A stretch of 17,924 nt of DNA from Nitrospinota bacterium (GTDB lineage Bacteria; Nitrospinota; Nitrospinia; UBA9942; JAHJSF01), in NCBI GenBank assembly GCA_018830405.1, contig JAHJSF010000164.1, forward strand, positions 1-17,924. The letters are read 5' to 3'. Position 1 is the stretch's first letter, and the number at the start of each line of letters is the position of its first letter. Position numbers and translations under genes: made by a program. The notes under the pieces are model-generated. The model was given only the letters and a program-made list of their open reading frames with translations, was not told the DNA's origin and did not search any database. Below are positions 1,129-17,166 of the stretch, piece after piece.

Positions 1129-3471
1129 TTAACACCTTGAATAACCGCATATCCTACAGACCACACAGCCGTCTACATGCTCTATCTGGCCCCCGCAATC
1201 GGGACATACATTACTTCCGCCGACAATCAGAGTAGATTCGCCTTTTGATACCGAGACTGTTTTTTCGATAGCCTTGGTCTTTCCTTTAGCCTTGGCCGTC
1301 AATTTGGAGCCGTCCCTCTGCAGGAAGGCGGCCACTGCCTTTGATATGGCATCGGAACAGGAGAGGATTCGGGCCCCATTGTCCCAGGTCTGCATGTGGC
1401 AGCTGATACCGGTCATCTGTTTGACGATCTCATCCGGGTCAATACCTGACCTTAGTGACAGGGAGACAAGTCTGGCTATCGCCTCAGATTGGGAGGCGGC
1501 ACAACCTCCGGCCTTTCCCATCTGGGTAAATATTTCAAATGGTTTCCCATCGTCTGATTCGTTGATTGTTACATAAAGATTGCCGCAGCCTGTACTCACC
1601 ACACGGGTTGTTCCCCGAGTCACCTTTGGTCTGGGGCGGGGAACAATATGTGAGGTGGTTACCACTTCCTCTTTGGTATAGGTGGTTCCGGTACTCAATA
1701 CTTGGTTCTGGCGGCTTCCGTCTCTATATATGGTTACCCCTTTACAGCCGAGTTCGGCCGCTAATATGAAGGTTTCCCTTATATCATCCTCGGTGGCCGA
1801 GTTGGGGAAGTTGATGGTTTTCGATACCGCATTATCGGTATATTTCTGGAAGGCGCTCTGCATCATCATATGATACTTTGGTGATACGTTGTGCGAGGTT
1901 ACAAATACCTTCCGAACTCCCTCCGGGATAGATTTCATATCGTCAAGGTTTCCGGTCATGGCGATATCTTCCATGAGCTGTTTGGAGTAGAAGCCTCCTT
2001 TTTTGGCGGTCTCTTCAAATATGTTATGCACCTCGACAAGTTTGTCGTTATCCATTACATTACGCATGTAGGAGAGGGCGAAGAGAGGTTCTACCCCGCT
2101 GCTTGTATCGGCTATGATACTGATTGTTCCGGTGGGGGCTATTGTTGTAGTGGTGGCGTTTCTAAGCTTCATCCCTTTGTAGGGAGACTTGCTCTTAGCG
2201 TTATCCTTATCATATGTGCTTCCCTTATAGTTGGGGAATACCCCTCTCACTTCGGCCAAGGCCACCGAGGCCTTCTTTGATTCTTTGTCAATAAACTCCA
2301 TTATCTTTTCGCCGGTCTTTATCCCTTTGTCGGAGTTGTAGGCTATGCCCAGGCGAATAAGCATATCGGCAAAACCCATTACCCCCAGCCCTATCTTTCT
2401 GTTCCCTTTGGTCTGAGTGCCTATCTCAGGGATAGGGTAGTTGTTCATATCTATGACGTTATCCAGGAAATGAACTGCCCTATGGGAGGTATCCTTTAAT
2501 TTGTCCCAATCTATCTTGTAACTATCCTTCTCTTTGTCTTGGAGGAGCATATTGGCCAGGTTTATCGAGCCGAGATTGCACGATTCGTAGGGGAGGAGAG
2601 GCTGCTCTCCGCAGGGGTTAGTGCTTTCTATCTCTCCGATATGGGGGGTTGGGTTGTCTTTATTTATTCGGTCTATGAATATTATCCCCGGTTCTCCGTT
2701 GGCCCAGGCCGATTTTACAATCAGATCAAAGACATCCCTCGCCTTAATTTTCTTAGCGGCCACACCGGTATGCGGATCTATCAGCTTATATTCCGAGTCG
2801 TTGGTTACCTGCCTCATGAAGTCTTCGGTTAAGGCTATCGATATGTTGAAGTTATTGAAACCCTTCTCACTGCTTTTACAGGTGATAAATTCAAAGATAT
2901 CGGGATGGTCAACACGGAGTATCCCCATGTTGGCCCCTCTTCTCGTTCCCCCCTGTTTGATGGCCTCGGTGGCAGAATCAAATACATGCATGAATGAAAT
3001 GGGGCCGCTTGAGACCCCGTTTGTCGAGGCTACGCGGCTGTTGGCCGGACGGAGTTTGGAGAAGGAGAAACCTGTTCCCCCGCCGCTTTTATGTATTATG
3101 GCCGTGTTTTTAACTGTCTCGAATATATCCTCCATTGAATCCCCCACGGGGAGGACAAAACAGGCCGAGAGCTGCTGCAGTTTGCTTCCGGCGTTCATTA
3201 GGGTAGGGGAGTTGGGCATAAAATCGAGATTATGCATCATGTTATAAAAGTCATTCTCAGTCTTTTTGAGATTGGCCGATTCTTTATAATTTAGGTCGGC
3301 CTGGGCAATATTTTTGGCCACCCTCCTGAAGAGGTCTTCCGGGGTCTCCATCAGCTTTCCCTTGGCATCCTTTTTAAGATACCTTCTCTCCAGTACTGTC
3401 AGGGAATTTTTACTAATAGGCGATTTCTTCCTATCTTTTTTAGAATCAGTATCTTTCATCTTTTTTACCAT
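1129..3471 (-). CDS. nrdJ: Adenosylcobalamin-dependent ribonucleotide reductase, class II
   Basis: The enzyme reduces ribonucleotides to deoxyribonucleotides using a thiyl radical generated from adenosylcobalamin; it needs no oxygen and no partner subunit. The 780 residues lack an N-terminal ATP cone. The motif NSPTLMNAG (87-95) precedes Cys104. NPCGE (285-289) holds the radical Cys287 with Asn285 and Glu289. Cys298 in ESCNLGS pairs with Cys104 as the redox couple, with the same 11-residue spacing as between the corresponding cysteines of Thermotoga maritima NrdJ. ATTTTIAPTGTIS is the phosphate-binding loop region. A TSCPD domain (TGISCHMQTWDNGARILSC) and a zinc-ribbon-like cysteine tail (C756, C759, C769, C772, C775, C780) close the protein. 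GAGG lies 7 bases before the chosen ATG. The stop is TAA. Its cofactor links it to the cob operon at the right end; no riboswitch is visible in its own upstream gap. Confidence 0.96.
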   Translation of the reverse strand: MVKKMKDTDSKKDRKKSPISKNSLTVLERRYLKKDAKGKLMETPEDLFRRVAKNIAQADLNYKESANLKKTENDFYNMMHNLDFMPNSPTLMNAGSKLQQLSACFVLPVGDSMEDIFETVKNTAIIHKSGGGTGFSFSKLRPANSRVASTNGVSSGPISFMHVFDSATEAIKQGGTRRGANMGILRVDHPDIFEFITCKSSEKGFNNFNISIALTEDFMRQVTNDSEYKLIDPHTGVAAKKIKARDVFDLIVKSAWANGEPGIIFIDRINKDNPTPHIGEIESTNPCGEQPLLPYESCNLGSINLANMLLQDKEKDSYKIDWDKLKDTSHRAVHFLDNVIDMNNYPIPEIGTQTKGNRKIGLGVMGFADMLIRLGIAYNSDKGIKTGEKIMEFIDKESKKASVALAEVRGVFPNYKGSTYDKDNAKSKSPYKGMKLRNATTTTIAPTGTISIIADTSSGVEPLFALSYMRNVMDNDKLVEVHNIFEETAKKGGFYSKQLMEDIAMTGNLDDMKSIPEGVRKVFVTSHNVSPKYHMMMQSAFQKYTDNAVSKTINFPNSATEDDIRETFILAAELGCKGVTIYRDGSRQNQVLSTGTTYTKEEVVTTSHIVPRPRPKVTRGTTRVVSTGCGNLYVTINESDDGKPFEIFTQMGKAGGCAASQSEAIARLVSLSLRSGIDPDEIVKQMTGISCHMQTWDNGARILSCSDAISKAVAAFLQRDGSKLTAKAKGKTKAIEKTVSVSKGESTLIVGGSNVCPDCGGQIEHVDGCVVCRICGYSRC

Positions 3472-8852: not shown

Positions 8853-9446
8853 TTATTCGCCTATTGCAAACCTGGCAAAACGGTTAATCGATATATTTTC
8901 TCCCAACTTGGCTATATACCTCTTAACCAACTCGTCTATGCTGATATCTTGATCCTTAACATAGGCCTGCTCGGTAAGACATATCTGGTTAAGATACTTG
9001 TCTATCTTGCCGTCCACCATCTTCTGGACGATGTTGTCAGGTTTCCCCGACTCCTTAGCCTGGTGGACATATATTTCTCTCTCTTTATTTATTAGTTCCT
9101 CAGGAACCTCATCCCTCTTGACATAGAGAGGGGATGAGGCTGCTATATGCATGGCCAAGTCATTCAGAAATCCCTGGAAATCATCTGTTTTAGCGACAAA
9201 ATCGGTTTCGCAGTTGACTTCAATCAGCACCCCAACCTTACCCCCCTGGTGGATATAGGAGGCTACGGAACCCTCCGAAGTGGAGCGCCCGGCCTTCTTG
9301 GCAGCCCCGGCTATCCCCTTTTTACGCAGGCAGACTATGGCCTCTTCGATATTTCCGTTTGTCTCCTTAAGGGCCTCTTTGCACTCCATTATGCCGGCCC
9401 CCGATTTTTCTCTTAAGTCCTTTACCATCTCTGCACTAATGCTCAT
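8853..9446 (-). CDS. tsf: Elongation factor Ts
   Basis: EF-Ts exchanges GDP for GTP on EF-Tu in the cytoplasm. At 197 residues it is the short form, as in Thermus, lacking much of the C-terminal region of the 283-residue E. coli protein. The N-terminal UBA-like domain reads MVKDLREKSGAGIMECKEAL (7-26). The TDFVA motif that inserts into EF-Tu is at 81-85, preceded by KVGVLIEVNCE, and DLAMHIAASSP follows. The ATG overlaps the rpsB TAA stop by one base (TAATG), so translation is probably coupled; AAAGGTG within rpsB serves as its ribosome site. The stop TAA is followed 4 bases later by repeat copy 2. Confidence 0.97.
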   Translation of the reverse strand: MSISAEMVKDLREKSGAGIMECKEALKETNGNIEEAIVCLRKKGIAGAAKKAGRSTSEGSVASYIHQGGKVGVLIEVNCETDFVAKTDDFQGFLNDLAMHIAASSPLYVKRDEVPEELINKEREIYVHQAKESGKPDNIVQKMVDGKIDKYLNQICLTEQAYVKDQDISIDELVKRYIAKLGENISINRFARFAIGE

Positions 9447-10474
9447 TACTTGTCACCTTTCTTATCTTCTTTTTTGGTAACAACCTTTTTGGCAATCGTC
9501 TTTTTAGGTGTGGTCTTTGTAGCGGCGGCGGCCTTTTTAACCGGAGCTGCTGACTTTTTGGTAAGTGTCTTTGTAGGAGCGACTGTTTTTACATGCTTCT
9601 CACCCCCCTCTTTGGACTTTTCTTCCTTCTCTTTAGGCTTCAATGTCTTCTTTTGATCATCCTCGGCCTTTTTAGCAGCCGCTACCTTTTCTCTTTCCTT
9701 ATCTTTGGCCTCTTTTATAGCCCTATCCAATTGGGCCTTTTTCTCTTTCTCCTTAGCCTCTTCTTCCTCCTTGGCCTTACGTTTTATTTCGAGAATAGTT
9801 TGTCCCTCAAGAACGGCATTGGCAATTTGGGAGGAGAGATATTGTATGGCCCGGACGGCATCGTCATTGCTGGGGATAACGTAATCTACGTTTTCAGGGT
9901 CGCAGTTTGTGTCGACCATGGCGATAAGCTTAGAACCCATGCGCTGCCCCTCTTGCAGGGCTATTTTCTCTTTTTTGATATCTATAATGAATATAATTTC
10001 CGGTATGGATGTCATATTTTTGATTCCGCCGAAAAACCTATCCAATCTCTCAGCTTCCCTTTCAAGGGTCAAGGCCTCTTTTTTGTGCAGAACTGAGAAG
10101 ACACCGCTCTCTTTCATGGTATCCAGTTCTTTTAAGCGGCCGGTGCTTTTGCAGATGGTGGCGAAATTGGTGAGGGTTCCCCCCAGCCAACGTTTATTTA
10201 TGTAGTACATCCCGCATCGGTTGGCCTCTTCGGCAACTATATCGCGGGCCTGTTTTTTTGTTCCGACGAAGAGAACCTTCTGTCCTTTGGCTACCGCCTC
10301 AGTTACAAACTTAAGGGCGGCATTGGCCAACTTAACGGTCTGGCTAAGGTCTATGATGTAGATTTTGTTACGAGAGCCAAAGATGTATGGTTTCATCTTC
10401 GGGTTCCATCTTTTAGTCTGGTGTCCGAAATGGGCCCCGGCTTCCAACAATTCACGCATGTTTACTTCTTGCAT
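9446..10474 (-). CDS. rpsB: 30S ribosomal protein S2 with long lysine-rich C-terminal tail
   Basis: S2 is a small-subunit protein needed for S1 binding and initiation. The core (about 1-230) carries MRELLEAGAHFGHQTKRWNP and NKRWLGGTLTNF, followed by DPENVDYVIPSNDDAVRAI. I place the start at the ATG 10474-10472, eight codons inside the longest frame. GGAGG lies there with 4-base spacing, and MQEVNMRELLEAG aligns with E. coli MATVSMRDMLKAG. The product is 342 residues, about 100 longer than E. coli S2 (241). The excess is a tail at 231-342: first Glu/Lys/Ala-rich and probably helical (231-295), then Lys/Thr/Ala/Pro-rich and histone H1-like (296-342). The first gene of rpsB-tsf-pyrH-frr, it is preceded by a candidate leader structure. 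The stop TAA overlaps the tsf ATG. Confidence 0.96.
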   Translation of the reverse strand: MQEVNMRELLEAGAHFGHQTKRWNPKMKPYIFGSRNKIYIIDLSQTVKLANAALKFVTEAVAKGQKVLFVGTKKQARDIVAEEANRCGMYYINKRWLGGTLTNFATICKSTGRLKELDTMKESGVFSVLHKKEALTLEREAERLDRFFGGIKNMTSIPEIIFIIDIKKEKIALQEGQRMGSKLIAMVDTNCDPENVDYVIPSNDDAVRAIQYLSSQIANAVLEGQTILEIKRKAKEEEEAKEKEKKAQLDRAIKEAKDKEREKVAAAKKAEDDQKKTLKPKEKEEKSKEGGEKHVKTVAPTKTLTKKSAAPVKKAAAATKTTPKKTIAKKVVTKKEDKKGDK

Positions 10475-10498
10475 ACTACCTCCGTAATGGTTTATCAT

Positions 10499-10559
10499 CC
10501 ACGCGCCTCACCTTTATACCGAAACCTTTGCAGGCACCCTCGGTAAAATCAGCGCGTGG
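10499..10559 (-). promoter_or_regulatory. Candidate S2 autoregulatory leader hairpin upstream of rpsB
   Basis: On the minus strand a perfect 8-bp outer stem CCACGCGC (10559-10552) / GCGCGTGG (10506-10499) encloses a 6-bp inner stem TACCGA (10545-10540) / TCGGTA (10522-10517). The apical loop is GGGTGCCTGCAAAGGTT. The structure starts just downstream of the candidate promoter and ends 25 bases before the true rpsB ATG, close to the GGAGG. S2-binding leaders upstream of rpsB are known in other bacteria. I cannot say whether this matches a described leader class, and binding of S2 here is an inference from position and fold. Confidence 0.5.
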
Positions 10560-10565
10560 GTTAAA

Positions 10566-10595
10566 TTAATAAGCATGGATTTTGCCGCCGAACAA
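10566..10595 (-). promoter_or_regulatory. Candidate promoter for the rpsB-tsf-pyrH-frr operon
   Basis: On the minus strand TTGTTC (10595-10590) and TATTAA (10571-10566) are 18 bases apart. The -10 match is partial. Transcription would start near 10560, exactly at the first base of the leader stem, which makes the assignment more attractive than the hexamers alone. A second good -35 (TTGACA, 10613-10608) has no -10 partner at the right distance. Confidence 0.38.
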
Positions 10596-10799
10596 TCTCC
10601 AATTATCCTTGTCAAAAGGGAGAATGTGGGGGAATACAAATCCATACAACTATTCCCCTCAACAGGTTAAACCTGAGAGGGAAAATGCTACAACAACCCA
10701 TACATTCAAACGCATGTCCGCCTTGGTGTCAAGAAAAATCGTCATGCAAGACAATAGTGGATTATTAAGGGGGGATTGTTGTTGTCTGGCTACCCCTAA
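10596..10799. other. Intergenic region with inverted repeat and possible decayed repeat element
   Basis: There is no gene here. It contains a perfect 8-bp inverted repeat GGGGAATA (10629-10636) / TATTCCCC (10651-10658), a near-palindrome CAGGTTAAACCTG (10663-10675), and CATTCAAACGC (10703-10713), which matches the terminal arm of the repeat family exactly for 11 bases. About 50 bases further on, TTAAGGGGGGATTGTTG resembles the inner palindrome of copies 1 and 2. This may be a degraded fourth copy. No U-rich terminator for the SYLF gene is evident on the minus strand. Confidence 0.35.
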
Positions 10800-11369
10800 T
10801 CAACGGGCTATTCTTGAGATCTTTGAACCTTCCAGTGTTAGGTTATACATTAACCCTTTATTCCCGAAGACAAAGGCTATGATGGGGTCCCTCAGGTTTA
10901 GAGAGTCTACGTTTTTTTCTCCGCCCCACTTTACTACAGTCAAATTTCCATCTACTCCTGCCTTCCAGCCGCTACTGTTTATGAATCCATTTAGGGCGTC
11001 TTCATCTAAAAATATTATTACCATTGATCTTGTTTGCGCGCCTAACTGCAGCCCAATAGAGGCGGAGGCTATATTGTAGTATTCAACCGTTTCCCCTCCT
11101 ATTTGCAGAGCCCCTTCTCCATATTCCCCGCCTACCCAAAAACCGGCTTTGATAACGCTTGGAAAAACCAATACCCCCCTGGCTATTGTCAGCAGATCGC
11201 TCCCTGCGGGGACTTCATGGATGAAACGTTTCAGGGTGGCTTCAACGTTGATATCAATTTCATAGGCCTCAGCGGCGGAAGTTGTTTTTGGGAATGAAAA
11301 CCAGACTACGGTAAAAAGCGCTGTCAGAGCCAGAAATGATAGTAATAATCGATACTTGGCGGATTTCAT
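10800..11369 (-). CDS. Secreted SYLF (Ysc84-like) domain protein, copy A
   Basis: The product is 189 residues with an N-terminal signal peptide: basic MKSAKYR, a hydrophobic stretch at about 8-24 and a likely cleavage near TTSA/A at 32-33. It should be periplasmic or exported. The remainder is a SYLF/Ysc84 domain, with RGVLVFPSVIKAGFWVGGEY, GLQLGAQTRSMVIIFL, SGWKAGVDGN and the terminal FGNKGLMYNLTLEGSKI. The eukaryotic members bind phosphoinositides and actin. The role of bacterial exported members is poorly known, often suggested to be lipid-related, so I give no function. AAGGAG lies 6 bases before the ATG. It is about 60% identical by eye to the next gene upstream, evidence of tandem duplication. 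The stop is TGA. Confidence 0.9.
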   Translation of the reverse strand: MKSAKYRLLLSFLALTALFTVVWFSFPKTTSAAEAYEIDINVEATLKRFIHEVPAGSDLLTIARGVLVFPSVIKAGFWVGGEYGEGALQIGGETVEYYNIASASIGLQLGAQTRSMVIIFLDEDALNGFINSSGWKAGVDGNLTVVKWGGEKNVDSLNLRDPIIAFVFGNKGLMYNLTLEGSKISRIAR

Positions 11370-11533: not shown

Positions 11534-12103
11534 TCAGCGGATTATTTTTGTAAACTTGGACCCCTCTATTGTCAGGTTATACATTAATCCTTTATTCCCG
11601 AAAACAAAACCTACGATAGGGTCCTGTATGTTTAGCGAATCTACGCTTTGGCCGCTCCCCCATTCAACCACAGCTACCGCTCCGTCTACCCCGGCTTTCC
11701 AACCTTCGGCTTTTCTAAAGTCACGAAGAGATTCTTCAGTTAGAAATAATAAAATTACCGATTTTGATTGCGCCCCAAGCTGGAAACCTACTGAGGCGGC
11801 GGCCGTGCTGTAATAGGCTACAGTTTTGCCGCCGATTCGCAGAGCCCCTTCTCCATACTCCCCACCGATGCCGATACCGGCCTTGATAACGCTTGGAAAA
11901 ATCAAAACCCCTTTTGATTTGGCCATTAGTTCTGAGCCCCCCGGCACCTTTTTTCTAAAAAGTTTCAATGTTGCATCAGCCTTGATATTAATCTCATCGG
12001 CCGAGGCGGCCTGGCTGCTTTGAGGGCAAACGAGGGGAAACAGGGAGAAAAAAATGATAAAAATCGATATCTTTAAGAGTGATTTTTGTCTAATGAAATT
12101 CAT
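11534..12103 (-). CDS. Secreted SYLF (Ysc84-like) domain protein, copy B
   Basis: This is the tandem paralogue of the gene at 10800-11369, with exactly the same 189-residue length. The signal peptide is MNFIRQK followed by a hydrophobic run of Ile/Phe/Leu, with cleavage probably near QAASA (31-35). Cys26 is preceded by Val rather than Gly, Ala or Ser, so a lipoprotein signal is unlikely. SYLF landmarks are KGVLIFPSVIKAGIGIGGEY, GFQLGAQSKSVILLFL, EGWKAGVDGAVAVVEW and FGNKGLMYNLTIEGSKF. The signal peptides of the two copies have diverged while the domains stay close, arguing for retained function. AGGAGG stands 5 bases before the ATG. This copy is transcribed first; copy A could be read from the same transcript or from its own promoter. 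Confidence 0.9.
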   Translation of the reverse strand: MNFIRQKSLLKISIFIIFFSLFPLVCPQSSQAASADEINIKADATLKLFRKKVPGGSELMAKSKGVLIFPSVIKAGIGIGGEYGEGALRIGGKTVAYYSTAAASVGFQLGAQSKSVILLFLTEESLRDFRKAEGWKAGVDGAVAVVEWGSGQSVDSLNIQDPIVGFVFGNKGLMYNLTIEGSKFTKIIR

Positions 12104-15253: not shown

Positions 15254-15282
15254 TTGACAAGTTGCTCCCCCTTTTATATCAT
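15254..15282 (+). promoter_or_regulatory. Sigma70-type promoter for the cob operon
   Basis: A perfect TTGACA (15254-15259) and TATCAT (15277-15282, five of six) are separated by exactly 17 bases. Initiation about 7 bases downstream places the start at the first pairing base of the cobalamin riboswitch (15290), which strongly supports the assignment. Confidence 0.8.
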
Positions 15283-15289
15283 CACAGAT

Positions 15290-15450
15290 ATTGTAAGTCC
15301 TCTGAGGAGGATAAGAGGGAAGACGGTGTAACCCCGTCGCGGACCCGCCGCTGTAACCGAGGACGAAAACCGCCTATCGCCAATGTCTCTTGAGGGATGT
15401 GAAGGCGCGGTTAGTAGAATGATTCGGGAGCCAGAATACCTGCTTATAAT
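15290..15450 (+). ncRNA. Cobalamin (adenosylcobalamin) riboswitch
   Basis: The aptamer shows the conserved blocks in order: AAGAGGGAA (15314-15322), CGGTGTAACCCCGTCGCGG, CCCGCCGCTGTAACCGAGGA (about 15345-15364) and the B12 box AGCCAGAATACCTGC (15429-15443). Closing stem P1 is visible as ATTGTAAG (15290-15297) pairing with CTTATAAT (15443-15450) with one G-U. It is followed by a long hairpin and an intrinsic terminator ahead of cobU, so control is most likely by premature termination when adenosylcobalamin is bound. It should govern the whole cobU-cobT-cobS transcript. Confidence 0.95.
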
Positions 15451-15452
15451 GG

Positions 15453-15498
15453 AACTCTATATTTTGTGGAACCCCGTGGCTGAGGGTTTTATAGAGTT
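15453..15498 (+). promoter_or_regulatory. Hairpin between riboswitch aptamer and terminator
   Basis: AACTCTATA (15453-15461) pairs perfectly with TATAGAGTT (15490-15498), and inside it AACCC (15470-15474) pairs with GGGTT (15484-15488). It starts 3 bases after P1. It probably belongs to the expression platform, but I cannot show a clean antiterminator alternative by eye; CCCCG at 15472-15476 is complementary to CGGGG of the terminator. Confidence 0.55.
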
Positions 15499-15519: not shown

Positions 15520-15557
15520 AATCCCCGAGCATATTGATTATGCGCGGGGATTTTTTT
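15520..15557 (+). terminator. Intrinsic terminator of the cobalamin riboswitch
   Basis: AATCCCCG (15520-15527) pairs with CGGGGATT (15545-15552). After one mismatch GCATA (15529-15533) pairs with TATGC (15539-15543) around loop TTGAT. A run of seven T ends at 15557. It stands 22 bases before the cobU start codon and is the likely off-switch of the operon. Confidence 0.9.
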
Positions 15558-15579
15558 GTTTAAAAATAGGAGGGCTCCG

Positions 15580-16107
15580 GTGAATAGGTTTACATTTGTC
15601 TTTGGGGGCGTGAGGAGCGGCAAGAGTGGTTACGCCCTTAATATGGCCAAGTCTATCTCCGATGATGTTCTCTACATCGCCACATCTACATTTGAGGATG
15701 AAGAGATGAGGGAGAGGATAAAAAGGCACAGAGATTCAAGGCCTGCTTCTTGGGGGTTGATAGAGGAGGGGCTTGATATTGGCAAGGCGCTACGTGCGGC
15801 GGATGAGAGATATAAGGTTGTCCTTGTTGATTGTTTAGGTGTCTTTATCTCGAACCTTTTATGTAATAACCTGGCCGAGGCCGAGATAGAAGAGAGGGTG
15901 ACGCGGTTGGCCCGATCAATTAGAGAGGTCGAGGCGGATATTATTGTAGTTTCAAATGAGGTTGGCTGCGGACTCGTTCCCGATAATCCGTTGGGGAGGC
16001 AATTCAGGGATTTGGTCGGTTTGGCCAATCAGATGATGTCCAAAGAGGCGGATGAGGTTGTTTTTATGCAGGCTGGGATTCCTGTCACAATAAAAGGGGG
16101 AAGATAG
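15580..16107 (+). CDS. cobU: Adenosylcobinamide kinase / adenosylcobinamide-phosphate guanylyltransferase
   Basis: A bifunctional cytoplasmic enzyme of the lower-ligand assembly branch: it phosphorylates adenosylcobinamide and then transfers GMP to give adenosyl-GDP-cobinamide, the substrate of CobS. I choose the GTG at 15580, which has AGGAGG at 6-base spacing; the longer frame would begin at a TTG inside the terminator T-run. The 175-residue product has the P-loop FGGVRSGKS at 8-16, the guanylylated histidine as His50 in RIKRHRDSRPASW (His46 in Salmonella), VVLVDCLGVFISNLL as Walker B, and NEVGCGLVPDNPLGRQFRD plus LANQM near the end. First gene after the riboswitch; cobT starts 3 bases beyond its TAG stop, so the two are surely one transcript. 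Confidence 0.96.
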   Translation: MNRFTFVFGGVRSGKSGYALNMAKSISDDVLYIATSTFEDEEMRERIKRHRDSRPASWGLIEEGLDIGKALRAADERYKVVLVDCLGVFISNLLCNNLAEAEIEERVTRLARSIREVEADIIVVSNEVGCGLVPDNPLGRQFRDLVGLANQMMSKEADEVVFMQAGIPVTIKGGR

Positions 16108-16110
16108 GGC

Positions 16111-17166
16111 ATGGGGAAGATAGAGGAAACGATAGCCAAGATAAAAGGTGTAGATCCGGCTCTCTTAGACGAGGCCCAGAAGAGGCTTGATAATCTGACC
16201 AAACCGCAGGGGAGTCTCGGAAAGTTAGAGGATACGGCCAAGAAGGTTGTGGGTGCTACTGGAGAGAAGAATCCCTCGACTAAGAGGAAGGTCATATTTA
16301 CGATGGCCGGGGATCATGGTGTTGTGGCCGAGGGGGTGAGCGCCTTTCCGCAAGAGGTGACTCCTCAGATGGTTTATAATTTCCTAAATGGTGGGGCGGG
16401 GGTAAATGTCTTGGCCAGACTGGCCGGGGCAAGGGTTGTTGTGGTTGATATAGGTGTGGCCACCGACCTAAACCCTCATCCTTATCTTATTGTCAAAAAG
16501 GTAAAATACGGGACGGCTAATATTGCCAAAGGACCGGCCATGACAAGAGAAGAAGCGATTAAATCTATCGAGAATGGGATAGATGTTTTTGAGGAAGAAT
16601 TTAAGAATGGGATAGATATTGCGGGAATGGGGGATATGGGTATCGGCAATACTACCCCATCCGCGGCCCTTGCCTCGGTTATAACAGGTAGCAGGGTAGA
16701 GGATATAACAGGGCGGGGAACGGGTATCTCGGATGAGGCACTATTAAATAAGATAGATGTAATTAAAAGGGCTATCGATATAAACAAACCTGATCCTAAT
16801 GATGCTATAGATGTCTTGGCCAAGGTTGGCGGTTTGGAGATAGGGGGGATTGCCGGAGTGATACTGGCTGCTGCTGCCCATAGAGTTCCGGTTGTGGTGG
16901 ACGGGTTTATCTCCGGAGCGGCCATGCTGATTGCCTATAAATTGGAGCCGAGTGTTAAAGACTATATTATTGCCGCCCATTCCTCTGTTGAGCGGGGGCA
17001 TAAGGCGATACTCGACTATGTAGGCGTAGAGCCTCTCCTTGATTTGGGGCTTAGACTTGGTGAGGGAACCGGGGCGGCCCTGGCCTTTGGGATAATCGAG
17101 GCGAGCCTAAAGATACTTGCCGAGATGGCCACCTTTGAGAGCGCGGCCGTTTCGGAAAAGATATGA
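16111..17166 (+). CDS. cobT: Nicotinate-nucleotide--dimethylbenzimidazole phosphoribosyltransferase
   Basis: This enzyme transfers the phosphoribosyl group of nicotinate mononucleotide to 5,6-dimethylbenzimidazole or a related base, making the alpha-riboside phosphate that becomes the lower ligand of cobalamin. The 351-residue length is typical. Landmarks are KPQGSLGKLE (31-40), TMAGDHGVVAEGVSAFPQEV (about 64-83), GMGDMGIGNTTPSAAL, GRGTGISDE, HSSVERGHKAIL and LGEGTGAALA near the end. The catalytic base corresponds to Glu318 (Glu317 in Salmonella). No gene for dimethylbenzimidazole synthesis is in the window, so the base could be imported or made elsewhere. A purine-rich GGGGGAAGATAGGG precedes the ATG. 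The TGA stop is immediately followed by repeat copy 3. Confidence 0.97.
   Translation: MGKIEETIAKIKGVDPALLDEAQKRLDNLTKPQGSLGKLEDTAKKVVGATGEKNPSTKRKVIFTMAGDHGVVAEGVSAFPQEVTPQMVYNFLNGGAGVNVLARLAGARVVVVDIGVATDLNPHPYLIVKKVKYGTANIAKGPAMTREEAIKSIENGIDVFEEEFKNGIDIAGMGDMGIGNTTPSAALASVITGSRVEDITGRGTGISDEALLNKIDVIKRAIDINKPDPNDAIDVLAKVGGLEIGGIAGVILAAAAHRVPVVVDGFISGAAMLIAYKLEPSVKDYIIAAHSSVERGHKAILDYVGVEPLLDLGLRLGEGTGAALAFGIIEASLKILAEMATFESAAVSEKI

Follow-up and report, generated by a model that had tools for sequence, protein, structure and literature searches.

A divergent leader upstream of rpsB in Nitrospinota is homologous to the S2 operator of E. coli

The DNA analyzed here, referred to as the window, is a stretch of 17,924 nucleotides from a Nitrospinota bacterium (assembly GCA_018830405.1, contig JAHJSF010000164.1). 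Its minus strand carries the operon rpsB-tsf-pyrH-frr, with rpsB as first gene. rpsB (9446-10474) encodes ribosomal protein S2 with 342 amino acids (Pfam PF00318, 3.6e-93; TIGR01011) and is followed by tsf (8853-9446), the gene for elongation factor Ts (Pfam PF00889). After the conserved 226 residues S2 continues into a long tail rich in lysine, glutamate and alanine (9446-9800, minus strand), and long S2 open frames occur in several relatives, too. The genome encodes both S2 and S1, the rpsA product (S1) being recognized with 627.7 bits. Upstream of rpsB, two Ysc84-domain proteins with signal-like N-termini are encoded in tandem on the minus strand (10800-11369 and 11534-12103) and are clearly paralogous. 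Directly upstream of rpsB, and on the strand of the operon, lies the structured leader described here.

A sequence-only reading of this DNA had proposed that an 8-bp and a 6-bp stem at 10499-10559 precede the rpsB ribosome site, and these stems are real. Read on the minus strand from 10559 to 10499, the outer stem P1 (CCACGCGC, 10552-10559, paired with GCGCGUGG, 10499-10506) encloses the inner stem P2 (UACCGA, 10540-10545, paired with UCGGUA, 10517-10522). The 17 nucleotides inside P2, GGGUGCCUGCAAAGGUU (10539-10523), are identical to those that had been quoted as a loop. They are actually composed of a junction strand GGGU (10536-10539), a third hairpin P3 (GCCU, the loop GCAA and AGGU; 10524-10535), which is seen in the fold and in the model alignment, and a single U that separates P3 from the 3' strand of P2. 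Downstream of P1 follow AUGAUAAACC, AUUAC, the rpsB Shine-Dalgarno sequence GGAGG (10479-10483), UAGU and the start codon AUG at 10474, so ordered that P1 ends 24 nt before the start codon. The extent given earlier is correct for the stems; the element as a whole reaches further in the 3' direction, to an ACC (10489-10491) within AUGAUAAACC that can form the 3' half of a pseudoknot with the highly conserved GGU of the junction (10538-10536). Less can be said for the predicted start of transcription, right behind which the stems had been placed. A promoter scan gave no site beyond chance expectation, its sole weak site on the correct strand lying around 200 nt upstream, and TGCTTATTAAT, directly upstream of the stem, is at best suggestive of a promoter.

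Folding of the correct strand reproduces the stems with a z score of -1.96, and 7 of 200 shuffled sequences fold equally well. Since this is only mildly unusual, folding energy alone is no proof of a functional structure. The main evidence comes from comparative analysis. We aligned 25 leaders from the class of the window, the window itself being excluded (alignment A1, a plain sequence alignment), and built on it the covariance model R1 with a hand-written structure drawn from those same rows. R1 finds the leader as its sole match in the window with 50.1 bits and an E-value of 5.2e-13; all 16 of 16 pairs are standard, and the order required of the motif, P1, internal loop, P2 and P3 with the conserved GGUG junction, is present. 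In A1, 92.4% of the cells in paired columns hold a pair compared to 79.3% after shuffling, and double changes are found in 12 of 20 pairs. Sliding the partners by one to three columns lets pairing fall to 32-54%. For the covariation measures at most one of 500 shuffles reached values as high. A larger alignment of 80 leaders contains double changes in 16 of 16 pairs, with 95.2% of cells paired and none of 500 shuffles as high; A1 is the cleaner evidence because the 80-leader alignment is fitted to the structure. Because the leader sequences are related to each other, such shuffles overstate the significance. Among the 80 leaders compensatory changes affect every position of P1, P2 covaries as well, P3 covaries across phyla, and the junction GGUG is kept in nearly all of them. 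The sequence-only reading had looked to covariation in rpsB upstream regions of related genomes for confirmation, and compensatory changes are abundant there. In an extended P1 (seed alignment columns 12-78) only about 60% pair when judged by eye.

How widely is this leader distributed? We located rpsB in 112 of 120 relatives and read the upstream regions. Most genomes of the class follow a common pattern, CACRCG, P1, GGAUC, P2, GGUG, P3, the second strand of P2, GA, GAUG, the second strand of P1, G(U/A)GG and then AACC right before the Shine-Dalgarno sequence. R1 matches 59 of 77 Nitrospinota class genomes, the window included, with one match each. R1 also picks up leaders that stand immediately before rpsB in other groups, among them Desulfobacterota (Geobacter, Desulfobacteraceae, Desulfatitalea), Bacillota, Aquificota and Myxococcales. 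In E. coli K-12 it matches the leader with 33.2 bits (E-value 3.7e-9), and this match overlaps the annotated 'tff, putative small RNA T44' (189712-189847). A second model, R2, was built from the 80-leader alignment and used at a threshold of E 1e-4 with strict filters, by which weak matches are lost. It matches 135 of 387 genomes, and outside the class 76 of 310, about a quarter; Bacilli that R1 had missed are recovered. For ten of these matches outside the class the position of rpsB is known, and all ten lie just upstream of it. No genome has more than one match, and wherever both positions are known the match is directly upstream of rpsB.

The leader is absent from the sister family f2, which belongs to the same order, and from family f5; in the model searches rpsB was present there and the leader was not (G001 and G003-G006 with loci L020, L047, L032, L045 and L039; G009, G012 and G014 with loci L021, L012 and L015). 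Hence, the leader is dispensable in these families. By eye, the sequence preceding rpsB in f2 and f5 ends in an apparent C-terminus of ArgJ, and therefore an operon rearrangement may have removed the leader. Leaders of ribosomal protein genes are generally described as narrowly distributed, and this had also been supposed for the element in the window. The S2 leader is reportedly counted by Fu et al. 2013 among the few widely distributed ones. Our data contradict the usual picture for S2, since a model made from one Nitrospinota class recovers the E. coli operator and the broader model has matches in about one in four of the sampled bacterial genomes outside that class. The leader, known best from gammaproteobacteria, might then be an ancient, nearly pan-bacterial switch that has been lost repeatedly in single lineages, with a pseudoknot next to the Shine-Dalgarno sequence as the design common to Nitrospinota, Aquificota, Firmicutes and E. 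coli; we see this idea as evenly balanced between being right and being wrong.

The idea that the window holds an undescribed class has to be given up. The element belongs to a class that Meyer et al. 2009 (PMC2704228) defined, with P1, P2, P3 and the pseudoknot, as the rpsB motif, and that Rfam lists as t44. As in the published motif, P2 and P3 cap P1, the junction pairs with the 3' extension of P1, and the whole lies directly upstream of rpsB. There are differences, however. The motif was reported in alpha-, gamma-, a few beta-, delta- and epsilonproteobacteria, in Cyanobacteria and in some Firmicutes (PMC2704228), a list from which Nitrospinota are absent. Its pseudoknot has 5 bp in most groups and 3 bp in Firmicutes (PMC2704228), whereas in the window it has 3 bp, and P3 of the window is short and capped by GCAA. 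With the E. coli S2 operator (t44, RF00127, tff) the leader shares P1, the GGGUG junction, P3 and the AACC extension, and the models match in both directions; it differs in its lower score, in the 3-bp pseudoknot and in that its ligand is putative. Comparison with Rfam had been suggested earlier, and it gave a divided answer. In a permissive scan of the window t44 aligns over its full length (10490-10580, minus strand, model positions 1-95 of 95), yet the score of 27.9 bits (E-value 0.027) falls below the gathering score of 44 bits. In a whole-genome search with t44 the same site was the best match (E-value 5e-4), and among 60 relatives one other genome alone reached an E-value of 0.1. Within the class and in Desulfobacterota, related leaders score 34.1, 37.5 and 39.1 bits, those of Desulfobacterota being at 37-39 bits. 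All of these remain below 44 bits, and thus the Rfam model covers less than the whole motif; its cut-off misses divergent leaders such as that of the window. The leader is therefore a divergent member of a known, widespread class in a little-studied phylum and does not define a new class. The L13 leader of Bacteroidia has to be distinguished from it. According to Eckert et al. 2020 (PMC7247131), the genes regulated by that leader also include rpsB, but rplM is the first gene and L13 is most likely the ligand, so that gene order and ligand set it apart. Among the table entries seen in this survey of new ribosomal leaders, there is no S2 leader (PMC7247131).

The pseudoknot deserves particular attention. 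In the window it is predicted from the sequence and comprises three Watson-Crick pairs, GGU with ACC, while a fourth position would oppose G and A. About 77 of 84 aligned leaders have GGU/ACC (75 counted and two added after correction of the anchor), and an AACC stands at the equivalent place in relatives. The count was anchored on the alignment, in which L071 and L121 were mis-anchored and on inspection have GGU/ACC, and L140 is offset by one. Four Firmicutes leaders (L103, L130, L140 and L169) have UGU/ACA instead of GGU/ACC, and this exchange is compensatory. Lactococcus laudensis (L137) has, by eye, AGU/ACU. One uncompensated case, AGU/ACA, was seen (L172). The fourth pair forms in 55% of leaders compared to 35% after shuffling, which is moderate covariation. 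The covariance models leave the strand after P1 unpaired. A Shine-Dalgarno-like sequence follows the ACC at a median distance of 6 nt, and in the window at 5 nt. We had also considered GGUU at the end of P3 as partner of AACC. Such a 4-bp pairing is possible in the window, but it competes with P3, and we set it aside in favor of the junction GGU/ACC because the latter is fixed in position and compensated in Firmicutes.

What might the leader do? In E. coli, S2 represses translation of rpsB-tsf via the leader and needs S1 for this, and the detailed mechanism has been described as unclear, with the ribosome binding site lying outside the operator (PMC10931766). The sequence-only reading had taken the stems for a leader of the rpsB-tsf operon, and this has held up well: the leader is a conserved structure with many compensatory changes, placed directly upstream of rpsB and homologous to the E. 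coli operator. We consider it very probable that it is an S2-binding autoregulatory element of the rpsB-tsf operon, where S2 as ligand, repression, and S1 as helper are inferred from E. coli. S2 that exceeds the supply of new 30S subunits would bind the P1-P2-P3 element, probably with the help of S1. Bound S2 would hold the junction GGU paired to the ACC just after P1, and this complex would keep a 30S subunit from starting on rpsB; by lost coupling, tsf expression would be lowered as well. The role of the pseudoknot in this scheme is our own proposal. It ends 5 nt before the Shine-Dalgarno sequence, so that a bound complex would keep the 30S subunit off rpsB, and this nearness suggests a means of translation block. 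A compensated pseudoknot just before the Shine-Dalgarno sequence offers a concrete and testable idea for how S2 blocks translation.

The homologous structure could also serve another purpose in Nitrospinota and not act as an S2 switch; it might respond to S1 without S2, for instance, or influence how the mRNA is processed or how stable it is. Regulation by S2 has been demonstrated in E. coli only, with S1 helping (PMC10931766), conserved leaders can switch their ligand, and the conserved internal strands G(A/U)GG and GGAU..GAUGA have no assigned role. Against this, the rpsB context is identical at every checked locus across many phyla. E. coli also shares the letters with the strongest conservation (GGUG, AACC, CACACG and GGAGG), and a change of signal is improbable. 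Still less probable is that the element acts as an intrinsic terminator or transcription attenuator rather than as a translational operator. P1 is strong and some ribosomal leaders do use transcription attenuation; however, no run of T follows P1, the conserved extension is AACC and then the Shine-Dalgarno sequence, and a terminator scan of 10400-10900 found none. A chance or non-specific intergenic stem-loop, for which the folding energy just mildly below that of shuffles could speak, is ruled out to near certainty by the match to a model that excluded the window and by covariation that exceeds nearly all shuffles in every measure.

Beside the rpsB operon with its putative S2 switch, the window contains a cobalamin riboswitch on the plus strand (15278-15461; Rfam RF00174, 105.9 bits) just upstream of cobU (15556-16107), which is followed by a cobT-like phosphoribosyltransferase gene (16111-17166). 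A tRNA gene on the minus strand (950-1023; by eye with the proline anticodon CGG) adjoins a gene for a ribonucleotide reductase with a TSCPD domain (1129-3471, minus strand). This reductase looks B12-dependent, which would fit the cobalamin genes.
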